The notes under the pieces were generated by a model, which saw only the letters and a program-made list of their open reading frames with translations, did no database searches and was not told the DNA's origin. Below are positions 6,636 through 45,673 of a stretch of 64,000 nt of DNA, in pieces (position 1 is the first letter of the stretch; the number at the start of each line of letters is the position of its first letter). The translations under genes were made by a program, and so were the position numbers. The DNA is from Salinimicrobium sediminilitoris (GTDB taxonomy: Bacteria; Bacteroidota; Bacteroidia; Flavobacteriales; Flavobacteriaceae): contig NZ_JAIVCC010000005.1 in NCBI RefSeq assembly GCF_020866905.1, positions 186,001-250,000 on the forward strand, in the 5' to 3' direction.

Positions 6636-8534
6636 ATGAGTGATGCTTTAAAACACGAATGCGGAATTGCCCAGCTGCGCCTTCTTAAACCTTTGGAATA
6701 CTATAAGGAGAAGTACGGTACAGCATTTTATGGGGTGAACAAAATGTACCTGATGATGGAGAAGCAGCATAACCGTGGCCAGGACGGCGCCGGTCTTGCG
6801 AGCATTAAGCTCAACACTCAGCCGGGTGACCGCTACATTAGCCGTATCAGGTCCAATGCAGCACAGCCCATTCAGGATATTTTTGCCCAGATCAATGATC
6901 GTATCAATGAAGAGATAAAACAACATCCTGAGTACGCAGATGATGTTGCCTTGCAGAAGAAGTATATCCCTTACCTGGGCGAATTGTTCCTGGGTCATGT
7001 GAGGTATGGCACCTTTGGTAAGAACAGTGTTGAAAACGTACACCCCTTTCTTCGCCAGAACAACTGGATGCACAGGAACCTCATCGTGGCAGGAAATTTT
7101 AACATGACCAATGTTCACCAGCTCTTCAACAATCTTGTTGAGTTAGGTCAACACCCAAAGGAGAAAGCAGATACTGTCACTGTAATGGAAAAGATTGGGC
7201 ATTTTTTGGATGATGAAGTTCGTAAACTGTATAAGAAACTAAAGAATGAAGGTTACTCGAAGGTAGAAGCTTCCCCGCTAATTGCCGAGCAGTTAAAAGT
7301 TAGCAAGATCCTTAGAAAATCGGCTAAGAACTGGGATGGCGGCTATGCCATGGCCGGCCTTTTAGGTCATGGGGATTCCTTTGTACTTCGGGATCCTGCA
7401 GGTATTAGACCGTGTTATTATTATCGCGATGACGAGGTTGTGGTAGTCGCTTCAGAAAGACCTGTCATTCAAACCGTCTTTAACGTTGATTTTGATAAAG
7501 TAGAAGAGTTACCACCGGGGCATGCGATCATCACCAAGAAAAATGGAGAGGTTCGTATCAAACAGATCCTTGAGCCATTGGAGAGAAAAGCCTGTTCCTT
7601 TGAGCGTATCTATTTTTCCCGCGGAAGTGATGCCGAGATCTACAAGGAGCGAAAAATGCTTGGAAAGCTGTTAATGCCCGAAGTGCTGAAGGCAATAGAT
7701 CACGATACCGTGAACACCGTGTTCTCTTTTATTCCCAATACAGCTGAAACCTCCTTCTACGGAATGGTGGAAGCGGCCCAGGATGAGCTTAACAAGCAGA
7801 AGAATGACACTATTCTTGCCGAAAAAGAAACCTTGACCGATGCTCGTTTACAGGAGATCCTTGCCCACAGGTTAAGGACCGAAAAGATCGCTATTAAAGA
7901 TGCAAAACTACGCACTTTTATTACCGAAGACAGCAGTCGTGACGACCTGGTGGCTCACGTTTATGACGTAACCTATGGCGTGGTAAAACCGGAAGACAAC
8001 CTGGTAATCATTGATGACAGTATTGTACGGGGTACTACTTTGAAGAAGAGTATCCTTAAGATGATGGACAGAACCAATCCAAAAAAGATCATCGTTATTT
8101 CTTCTGCTCCTCAAATACGTTATCCAGATTGCTACGGAATAGATATGGCAAGACTGGAGAATTTAGTGGCTTTTCAGGCCGCGCTCGCACTTCTGAAGGA
8201 AAACGATCAACTTCACATTGTGGAAGAGGTATATGAGAAATGTAAAAAGCAGGTAGATCTTGATGATAAGGAAGTGAAAAATTTTGTCAAAGAAATCTAT
8301 GCTCCTTTTACCGATGAACAAATTTCGGATAAGATAGCAGAACTGCTGAGCGATGAAAGCATTAAAGCTGAAGTAAAAATCATATTCCAATCTGTAGAAA
8401 ACCTTCACAAGGCATGCCCAAAAAACCTTGGAGACTGGTATTTTACAGGAGATTATCCAACTTTTGGAGGAAACAGGGTAGTCAATCGTGCATTTATAAA
8501 TTTTTACGAAGGAAGTACTGATAGAGCCTATTAA
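6636..8534 (+). CDS. Amidophosphoribosyltransferase-like protein (PurF paralogue, long form)
   Basis: This 632-residue protein has the two PurF domains. The N-terminal glutamine amidohydrolase starts at Cys9 (HECGIA), which would be the nucleophile after removal of an 8-residue leader, and continues with NRGQDGAGLAS and LGHVRYGTFG. The phosphoribosyltransferase PRPP loop is VIIDDSIVRGTTLKK near residue 457. It is about 130 residues longer than classical PurF (roughly 470-510), with extra sequence between the domains and a long C-terminal extension. PurF makes phosphoribosylamine from PRPP and glutamine; whether this one does, or is a specialised paralogue, cannot be decided here. Confidence 0.85.
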   Translation: MSDALKHECGIAQLRLLKPLEYYKEKYGTAFYGVNKMYLMMEKQHNRGQDGAGLASIKLNTQPGDRYISRIRSNAAQPIQDIFAQINDRINEEIKQHPEYADDVALQKKYIPYLGELFLGHVRYGTFGKNSVENVHPFLRQNNWMHRNLIVAGNFNMTNVHQLFNNLVELGQHPKEKADTVTVMEKIGHFLDDEVRKLYKKLKNEGYSKVEASPLIAEQLKVSKILRKSAKNWDGGYAMAGLLGHGDSFVLRDPAGIRPCYYYRDDEVVVVASERPVIQTVFNVDFDKVEELPPGHAIITKKNGEVRIKQILEPLERKACSFERIYFSRGSDAEIYKERKMLGKLLMPEVLKAIDHDTVNTVFSFIPNTAETSFYGMVEAAQDELNKQKNDTILAEKETLTDARLQEILAHRLRTEKIAIKDAKLRTFITEDSSRDDLVAHVYDVTYGVVKPEDNLVIIDDSIVRGTTLKKSILKMMDRTNPKKIIVISSAPQIRYPDCYGIDMARLENLVAFQAALALLKENDQLHIVEEVYEKCKKQVDLDDKEVKNFVKEIYAPFTDEQISDKIAELLSDESIKAEVKIIFQSVENLHKACPKNLGDWYFTGDYPTFGGNRVVNRAFINFYEGSTDRAY

Positions 8535-8630
8535 AAAGGTTTTTTTCCGACGCTTTTAACGTACTTTGTGCAGTTTGACTAAAATACATGCAGTTCATCT
8601 AAAAAGCTCTCACAGACTCAGAATAAAGTC

Positions 8631-8638
8631 TATTTTTA
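8631..8638 (+). promoter_or_regulatory. Promoter-like -7 box of repeat RNA copy A
   Basis: TATTTTTA resembles TAnnTTTG with one change in the last base. It predicts a start at about 8645, the fourth base of the repeat, the same repeat base as predicted for copy B. No -33 TTG is evident. Confidence 0.4.
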
Positions 8639-8644
8639 CGAAGC

Positions 8645-8711
8645 CATAACATAAGTAGGTTAAGTTCATGGTAGATTTGGGGCAAAAAAGGTGGAGCTTT
8701 CCACCTTTTTT
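8645..8711 (+). ncRNA. Candidate small RNA, copy A of a twin element
   Basis: The segment 8642-8712 is almost identical to the reverse complement of 45481-45553. It consists of about 40 bases of conserved unstructured sequence followed by a 12-bp stem (8684-8695 with 8700-8711) with loop GCTT and a T run, that is, an intrinsic terminator. Copy B has one extra A and one extra T on opposite sides of this stem, so pairing is kept. An ATG inside would run into different frames in the two copies, which argues for RNA and against a peptide. It lies between the PurF-like gene and the DUF2490 gene. The gap 8535-8859 holds nothing else except a palindrome and the DUF2490 promoter. Confidence 0.65.
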
Positions 8712-8770
8712 ATTTTATATAAGTTCCAATTACTTCTCCTCTCAAGTTTCCAACATTAGAAATAAGACCT

Positions 8771-34557: not shown

Positions 34558-34631
34558 GGGGGATTAGCTCAGCTGGCTAGAGCGTTTGGCTGGCAGCCAA
34601 AAGGTCATCGGTTCGACTCCGATATTCTCCA
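34558..34631 (+). tRNA. tRNA-Ala (anticodon GGC)
   Basis: All arms can be drawn: acceptor GGGGGAT with ATTCTCC, D stem GCTC/GAGC, anticodon stem TTTGG/CCAAA around loop CTGGCAG (anticodon GGC at 34592-34594), and T stem ATCGG/CCGAT. The G3-U70 pair that marks alanine tRNAs is present. The gene ends at the discriminator A; CCA is not encoded and must be added by nucleotidyltransferase. It stands alone with its own promoter box and terminator. Confidence 0.97.
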
Positions 34632-44804: not shown

Positions 44805-45413
44805 ATGGCTTTCGAGTTACCAAAATTAAAATATGGATTTGATGCATTAGAGCCTCACATTGACGCTAGAACAATGGAGATTCACCACGATAAGCATCAT
44901 GCAGGATATACCAGCAAATTAAATGATGCCGTGAAAGGAACAGATATGGAAGGCAAGAATATTGAAAATATTCTTTCTAATCTGGATATGGAAAATAAAG
45001 CGGTACGTAATAATGGAGGTGGATATTTCAACCACAACCTATACTGGGAAATAATGGGCCCAAATGGTGGCGGAAAACCCCAGGGAGATCTTGCCTCTGC
45101 AATAGACAAGGATTTTGGCTCTTTTGATGCCTTTAAAGACGAATTTTCAAAGGCCGGTGCCACTCAATTTGGATCGGGATGGGCTTGGCTTTGCGTGCAG
45201 GAAGGTGGTAAACTGGAGGTATGTTCTTCGGCAAACCAGGACAACCCACTAATGCCCGGAGTTGGTTGCGGCGGACACCCAATCCTGGGGATGGATGTTT
45301 GGGAACACGCTTACTATCTTAAATATCAAAATCAGCGTCCGGCTTACATTGAAGCTTTCTTCAATGTGATCAACTGGGAAGAAGTATCTAAAAGATATGC
45401 ACAGCACAAATAA
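44805..45413 (+). CDS. sodA: Superoxide dismutase (Fe/Mn family)
   Basis: This 202-residue cytoplasmic enzyme converts superoxide to oxygen and peroxide. Metal ligands are His27, a second histidine in GGGYFNHNLYW, and the aspartate and histidine of MDVWEHAYYLKYQ. The segment SANQDNPLM carries a glutamine at the position typical of manganese enzymes, which favours Mn over Fe, though cambialistic use is possible. It is monocistronic with a strong terminator. Confidence 0.96.
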   Translation: MAFELPKLKYGFDALEPHIDARTMEIHHDKHHAGYTSKLNDAVKGTDMEGKNIENILSNLDMENKAVRNNGGGYFNHNLYWEIMGPNGGGKPQGDLASAIDKDFGSFDAFKDEFSKAGATQFGSGWAWLCVQEGGKLEVCSSANQDNPLMPGVGCGGHPILGMDVWEHAYYLKYQNQRPAYIEAFFNVINWEEVSKRYAQHK

Positions 45414-45475: not shown

Positions 45476-45481
45476 GCGCAT

Positions 45482-45550
45482 AAAAAAAGGTGGATAGCTC
45501 CACCTTTTTTTGCCCCAAATCTACCATGAACTTAACCTACTTATGTTATG
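45482..45550 (-). ncRNA. Candidate small RNA, copy B of the twin element
   Basis: This is the minus-strand copy of the element at 8642-8712. The two differ by one loop base (GCTA instead of GCTT) and by one extra A and one extra T on opposite sides of the terminator stem, which keeps the pairing. The stem runs 45482-45511. Upstream, the promoter has both boxes with normal spacing. It lies between sodA and recJ, converging on the sodA terminator. A short stretch near 45633 (TTCAACTTAACCTGTAAG) resembles part of the element. Confidence 0.7.
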
Positions 45551-45556
45551 GCTCTT

Positions 45557-45585
45557 CTAAAGTAGATAAACTTCTCTCTTTCAAA
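45557..45585 (-). promoter_or_regulatory. Promoter of repeat RNA copy B
   Basis: On the minus strand TTTG (45582-45585) is followed after 17 bases by TACTTTAG (45557-45564), which differs from TAnnTTTG at one base. The predicted start falls at the same base of the repeat as in copy A. Confidence 0.55.
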
Positions 45586-45673
45586 AACTTTATTAGACCA
45601 ACTACTGGGATAATTGTTAAAGAGCATGTGTTCAACTTAACCTGTAAGAATTAGCTAACAGCCTGATAGAAAA

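Follow-up and report, generated by a model that had tools for sequence, protein, structure and literature searches.

Why should a stretch of about 71 bp occur twice, almost unchanged and on opposite strands, in the 64,000 nucleotides of Salinimicrobium sediminilitoris DNA analysed here (referred to below, at its full length, as the window)? The two copies, A (8642-8712, forward strand) and B (45481-45553, reverse strand), had been described in an initial annotation as nearly identical elements that each end in an intrinsic terminator, and both statements are borne out: they align with 97% identity (E 4.4e-27), and the sequence that they have in common, GCCATAACATAAGTAGGTTAAGTTCATGGTAGATTTGGGGC, runs into such a terminator in each case. 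The differences between them are exactly those originally listed, namely one loop base (GCTT/GCTA) and an extra A and an extra T that pair with one another across the terminator stem. The description as a two-copy element holds for A and B themselves but needs extending, as a third copy, 85% identical, is present on another contig of the same genome (G000:C17:65859-65929).

The small RNA (sRNA) gene proposed for copy A runs from 8643 to about 8713 on the forward strand and comprises a hairpin (8643-8672), a linker (8673-8683, AGATTTGGGGC) and a terminator (approximately 8684-8713), its first RNA base being placed from the position of the -7 box considered below; that for copy B (45480-45552, reverse strand) has the same anatomy, with a terminator stem longer by one base pair. 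The predicted fold is a single 5′ hairpin followed by the terminator, with AGTAGGTTAAG exposed in the hairpin loop, and both copies fold better than shuffled sequences (z -3.19 and -3.76). What is conserved across copies of the sRNA is the loop, AGUAGGUUAAG, and the linker, GAUUUGGGG. The 469 copies fetched (from loci that overlap) show 36 distinct hairpins, and in this set the loop core is invariant by construction, having been fixed in the search pattern; it is invariant also in 47 aligned copies that were fetched by similarity or by a core match, and terminators are conserved in the listed and aligned copies alike. Over the 23 distinct rows of the hairpin alignment paired cells make up 94.6%, while no covariation beyond that of shuffles was found in these rows (93 of 500 shuffles equal or better). 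The compensating stem change to which the initial annotation had pointed is therefore real as regards the A/T pair, but it sits in the terminator, and the 5′ hairpin is without support from covariation.

A shared reading frame, said to be broken, is indeed interrupted by a 1-base indel between genera (GGTAGATTTGG / GGTAAGATTTGG), so that the element is most likely not coding, and a coding element was ruled out on this ground. A known RNA family was likewise excluded. Searching the whole window against Rfam 15 at gathering score gave a tRNA only, with no match for the sRNA (Flavo-1, to which it had been suggested that it might belong, included), and six sRNA loci gave only sub-threshold matches, in keeping with the original remark that no known family was recognisable. 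The tRNA gene in question, at 34558-34631, is the sole match of the window at that score. No earlier description of this RNA was found among the papers searched, as far as titles and abstract openings reveal, and the string AGTAGGTTAAGTT is absent from the paper texts searched.

Using BLAST, the sRNA was found in all 12 genomes of the genus and, in the wider search that had been proposed, in 239 of the 299 genomes of the Flavobacteriaceae. A covariance model built on its 5′ domain (R1) matched 34 of 246 genomes sampled from the order, the two matches outside the family (both in family f5, G501 and G511) being rejected because each falls within an open frame (325 and 199 aa respectively), and 29 of 247 sampled from the phylum; 23 of these 29 are family members with strong matches, and the other six, from outside the family (E 0.017-0.093), were taken as chance. 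Across these two samples, then, there is not credibly a homologue of the sRNA outside the Flavobacteriaceae. Sequence evidence thus speaks strongly for a gene that encodes a small regulatory RNA of about 70 nt, combining as it does wide conservation in the family with a fixed place in the genome, promoter classes of its own and a predicted target, which are taken up in turn below.

Promoters and a candidate regulator

The -7 box of Bacteroidota has the consensus TAnnTTTG. The initial annotation had proposed that a promoter-like box predicts the same start base in both copies, and this proved correct: boxes of the -7 type, TATTTTTA in copy A (8631-8638, forward strand) and TACTTTAG in copy B (45557-45564, reverse strand), lie at an identical distance from the same base of the RNA, their first letter being exactly 12 bases upstream of it. 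Further upstream each copy has two half-sites. In copy A these are a promoter-distal TTTGAC at -69 (8574-8579, forward strand) and a promoter-proximal TTCATC at -49 (8594-8599, forward strand); in copy B they are TTTAAC at -69 (45616-45621, reverse strand) and TTGGTC at -49 (45596-45601, reverse strand), the last of which fits the looser pattern TTNRNC but not TTN[AG][AT]C.

In all, 382 distinct upstream regions were compared, made up of a regulated class of 332 and a second class of 50. The stricter pattern occurs at both -71 to -67 and -51 to -47 in 233 of the 332 regulated copies, as against 0.16% of mononucleotide shuffles, and both half-sites are present in 0/50 of the second class; within a set of 86 upstream regions the spacing between half-sites peaks at 20 bp (74 pairs). 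A TA-nn-TT-n-[GA] box begins at -12 in 279/332 regulated copies. The second-class promoter is a nearly invariant 50 bp ending in CACAATACCAGTAATTTAG, and a copy carrying it is the last one in each of the 35 arrays that have one.

As to which kind of protein might read these sites, the half-site resembles the core bound by the LytTR protein AlgR, given as CCGTTCGTC in the available text of PMC4064291: a relaxed form, CCGTT[CT][AG]TC, is found in 24/332 regulated copies compared with 0.12% of shuffles, although the exact core is found in just 2/332. AgrA, also of LytTR type, is described in the accessible part of PMC4227749 as binding two direct repeats centred near -60, and a direct-repeat half-site pair of this type near -60 is present at the sRNA promoters. 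In two Flavobacterium contigs a gene for a REC+LytTR protein lies downstream of such repeats (L176:5597-6409 and L138:3386-4204); for these two genes a -7 box at the distance typical of the sRNA was not found (box scores -4.5 and -10.0). In their leader a CCCAAA-CTAC stretch may be capable of pairing with the sRNA directly. It would on these grounds be a LytTR-type regulator that controls the sRNA promoters.

The most durable of the rival explanations is that the half-sites belong to some other regulator that binds direct repeats, for instance one of AraC or OmpR type. LytTR proteins are not alone in using direct repeats spaced by two turns, none of the nine LytTR genes in the genome of the window has convincing half-site repeats, and the rarity of the exact AlgR core fits this alternative as well; on the other side stand the enrichment of the relaxed core, the REC+LytTR genes behind repeats in two contigs, and a repeat position that resembles that of AgrA, as far as PMC4227749 describes it in its available part. 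We regard a regulator of another type as unlikely, though well worth bearing in mind, and LytTR control as the better reading of the same sites.

Half-sites of this kind are met elsewhere also. An acyl-carrier-like gene, which we take to encode an acyl carrier protein, has two repeats resembling half-sites upstream of it, 20 bp from one another and close to its promoter region, at 11 loci (L105, L148, L202, L128, L184, L223, L191, L140, L159, L154 and L189).

Predicted pairing with CAP-domain lipoprotein mRNAs

Three weak R1 matches within family genomes turned out to lie in leaders of mRNAs, in antisense orientation with respect to the sRNA: those of L096/L240 and L100 encode CAP-domain lipoproteins (PF00188), and that of L097/L241 a 42-residue ORF. 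So as not to argue in a circle, we next collected homologues of the CAP proteins on the basis of protein similarity, and at E 1e-15 one is present in 170 of 249 family genomes. When the sRNA and CAP genes are counted together over these 249 genomes, kinship being ignored, 165 have both, 36 only the sRNA, five only CAP and 43 neither. The best 30 CAP loci yielded 28 usable starts, two without a usable frame being left out, and these score above 497 other gene starts in two-part pairing with the sRNA (Mann-Whitney p 2.8e-10), 16/28 lying above the 95% level and 8/28 above the 99% level; as orthologues of a small number of genes make up most of the background, such p values are indicative.

The pairing has a characteristic form. 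In the example of L305 the leader, CCCAAATCTAAATAACCTACTTATG, is complementary to the linker and the loop together, and the compact pairing site (here CCCAAAUCUAAAUAACCUACUUAUG) overlaps or abuts the AUG in many CAP mRNAs. Duplex energies were calculated for nine cases with 200 shuffles each, giving -35.9 for L290, -33.2 for L305 (where the AUG itself is paired in the predicted duplex) and -29.8 and -25.2 for L304 and L291, in all of which 0/200 shuffles were as low, and -24.7 for L308 (1/200). For the CAP mRNA of the window's own genome, L295, the value is -23.2 (1/200), and for its relatives L306 and L301 it is -24.1 (1/200) and -21.7 (2/200), while a control from a genome that lacks the RNA, L293, gave -11.1 (162/200). 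The complementarity, at the start codon region of a message whose gene is not linked to the sRNA genes, is conserved, but in the window's own genome it is weak by the two-part score, which 12% of other gene starts equal.

The CAP sites go together with the RNA. In genomes that carry the sRNA 24/40 CAP starts reach the 95% level, leaving 16/40 below it, and the median number of half-sites is 4.5; in genomes without it by BLAST 0/8 reach that level and there are 0-2 half-sites (p 8e-5 for the pairing site and 1e-5 for the half-sites), these eight starts coming from only three genomes (G014, G057 and G248), two of them of one genus.

Half-sites upstream of CAP genes, counted as TTN[AG][AT]CG on both strands of 230 nt, average 4.1 per 230 nt, compared with 0.49 upstream of other genes, and same-strand pairs 19-22 bp apart occur in 18/27 CAP genes versus 17/537 others (the RNA-less L293 excluded); three Salinimicrobium CAP leaders have two forward half-sites exactly 20 bp apart. 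It is likely, from these sites, that one regulator is common to the sRNA and CAP genes. The layout at CAP genes is nevertheless unlike that at the sRNA genes, with sites frequently near -123 and -81 relative to the AUG, inverted ones between them and distances that vary, and so the regulator could either activate or repress there. For 21/28 CAP genes a search of 230 nt turned up no strict TAnnTTTG box.

Could pairing instead activate the targets, by opening structure in the CAP leader? In some CAP leaders, e.g. those of L294 and L308, an upstream AGTAGG/GGTTAGG could, as judged by eye, fold onto the sRNA site, a possible cis-switch, and an activating role would fit the potential of these words, in several leaders, to pair with the very site to which the sRNA is complementary. 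That the AUG is itself paired in the predicted L305 duplex speaks against it, however, and we consider activation fairly improbable. CsrB and 6S are RNAs that act by binding and sequestering proteins, and it could be asked whether the present RNA does mainly this, pairing with CAP mRNAs being secondary; the strong conservation of both loop and linker in its many copies, and its redundancy, would fit this too. Against such a role, the CAP sites track the RNA (none being seen in the three genomes that lack it) and span the two conserved segments beside the AUG, so that protein binding seems quite improbable as the main activity, and repression of CAP mRNAs by pairing remains the preferred reading.

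Beyond CAP the yield was small. A pattern search of Salinimicrobium genomes gave 43 matches, of which 25 are copies of the sRNA, and the 18 others (against 10 in the control) were rejected, none being convincing and 16 overlapping, on either strand, an open frame of 142 aa or longer; two of the 18, L285 and L287, are situated before open frames. A two-part pattern applied to 159 genomes across the family gave 88 matches versus about 73 in the control (hand counts), so slight an excess that no regulon is established beyond CAP. As separate observations, L331, L325, L347 and L367 have CCAAATCT...AACCTA just upstream of the start, with half-site-like words further up, and are candidate extra targets; L331 and L325 read as secreted or lipoproteins.

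Some of the 88 matches have a striking arrangement. Transcripts with at least one sRNA-complementary site resembling GCCCCAAATCTATCsTAAATTTnAACTTATG occur in 11 genomes (L350-L354, L356, L358, L361, L362, L241 and L238) and end in an ORF of about 41 residues, the codons of which are again complementary to the sRNA. By a strict regular expression there are 2-3 separate sites in 6/9 of the decoy-like loci tested (rows double-counting overlaps), the remainder having been judged by eye. Where this was read (L241 and L238) the transcript lies downstream of a CoA-transferase gene, and half-site repeats were seen upstream of it in L241, L238 and L358. No multi-site transcript was found in the 900 bases searched after the CoA-transferase gene in any of 12 Salinimicrobium genomes. 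These multi-site transcripts are possibly decoys for the sRNA. L235, at about 1220-1600, has a short unit repeated twice, with part of a site complementary to the sRNA; half-sites precede it, a hairpin resembling a terminator is present, and the whole may represent a non-coding decoy.

Genomic place and the separation of the copies

A 20-base word located at least 118 contig stretches, and 80 among the matches listed were tallied. Within the 8 kb fetched for each, the purF cluster is a neighbour in 64 and the superoxide dismutase (sod) cluster in 62, with both present in 50 and neither in 4, and in 50/50 of the loci holding both the sRNA lies between them. One copy is present in 42 of the 80 loci, two in 19, three in nine, four in eight, and five and six in one each, these array numbers (1-6) being lower bounds as fetched stretches can end mid-array. 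The six copies are those of Zobellia uliginosa DSM 2061 (L118), and Maribacter sedimenticola DSM 19840 (L113) is among the genomes with four. That the element is instead the end of a mobile element, which the initial annotation had itself raised, or a functionless chance repeat would suit its multiple, near-identical copies, but with this constant place between purF and sod in all 50 informative loci, few copies per genome and a conserved promoter and terminator, a transposon end was ruled out and the chance of either is negligible.

Both neighbours of the ancestral array are present in the window. To the left of copy A is a gene with Pfam glutamine amidotransferase domains (6636-8534, forward strand), presumably purF, and beside copy B is the Fe/Mn superoxide dismutase gene (44805-45413, forward strand), the right neighbour. 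The order reads purF> copyA> ... <addB-like <ompA-like <kbl-like <addA-like sod> <copyB, and then recJ, some of these names being our assumption. Relative to other genera, the sod end of the block between the copies (8714-45479) is inverted; it holds sod, a UvrD-helicase gene, and kbl-like, OmpA-family and PD-(D/E)XK genes. The same two half-loci are seen in the other Salinimicrobium genomes, with the exception of G008 (74% complete, with one copy only).

The gene neighbourhoods of A and B, originally called unrelated, thus appear on comparison with other genera as two halves of one ancestral locus. From this gene order we infer that the copies were separated in Salinimicrobium by an inversion, one breakpoint of which fell within the sRNA array, and the twins are probably former tandem neighbours, because both half-loci are present in an order inverted with respect to other genera. 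Of the proposal of a duplicated small regulatory RNA, then, the RNA gene stands, whereas "duplicated" is better replaced by a tandem array that gene order suggests was split.

Proposed circuit and comparison with known systems

Putting these elements together, a LytTR-type response regulator on two half-sites 20 bp apart would switch on the tandem sRNA genes, and the same regulator would probably act at the CAP lipoprotein genes, by activation or repression. The RNA of about 70 nt would present its hairpin loop and its linker, both to one compact site on the CAP mRNA, and pairing, to judge from the position of the site, would cover the start codon and so prevent translation. Multiple regulated copies, with a fixed-promoter copy in many arrays, might set a dosage threshold; the Salinimicrobium inversion, having one end inside the array, would have split the two copies of the window. 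We infer transcription, LytTR control, translational repression, feed-forward wiring and decoy action from sequence. The core of this, namely that a redundant RNA under LytTR control acts by base pairing to block the translation of surface lipoproteins, we hold to be probable. A fuller version is offered much more tentatively, and is on balance doubtful: a three-part circuit in which one LytTR regulator would govern the sRNA array, the silenced lipoproteins and, in many genera, a multi-site decoy that titrates the sRNA, all through one promoter code, the fixed-promoter copy setting a floor, so that surface state would be a switch with an RNA threshold.

If true, this would provide a widespread sRNA of the Flavobacteriaceae, a family on whose sRNAs little was found in the literature searched, and one for which a conserved target is predicted, a promoter code can be given and the class of the regulator is open to test. 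It would, moreover, illustrate cleanly both how regulator sites can be common to an sRNA and the gene on which it acts and how a loop and a linker can pair together.

Several known systems invite comparison. According to the available text of PMC11697453, FopS/GibS of Bacteroides thetaiotaomicron are multi-copy paralogous sRNAs at many loci, with canonical sigma-ABfr promoters, that repress SusC-like transporters. As far as these descriptions go, the likeness lies in multi-copy Bacteroidota sRNAs that are about 65-70 nt long, are conserved in their 5′ region and pair near start codons of surface proteins, and the difference in the tandem arrangement at one syntenic place, the half-site promoters, the CAP sites and the loop-plus-linker pairing seen here. 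Rfp18, from the Rfp1-89 set of Flavobacterium psychrophilum, pairs through its third stem-loop, on the account in the accessible part of PMC9723704. It too, as described there, is a flavobacterial sRNA conserved beyond the species and with predicted pairing to mRNAs of secreted proteins, but the present RNA is predicted to fold as one 5′ hairpin and a terminator, in contrast, going by that description, to the use of a third stem-loop.

Further afield, the Qrr sRNAs of Vibrio are redundant copies activated by one response regulator, using LuxO/sigma-54 and Hfq; redundancy under a single response regulator would be shared (the latter being putative here), whereas the sites in our case are LytTR-like and combined with a TAnnTTTG-type box. 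Under the control of AgrA, a LytTR regulator, Staphylococcus makes RNAIII, a long RNA that is present in a single copy and has a coding function as well. As far as the accessible account of AgrA binding allows, the two have in common direct repeats centred near -60 at the gene of a regulatory RNA, and they differ in that the sRNA described here is about 70 nt long, multi-copy and most likely not coding.
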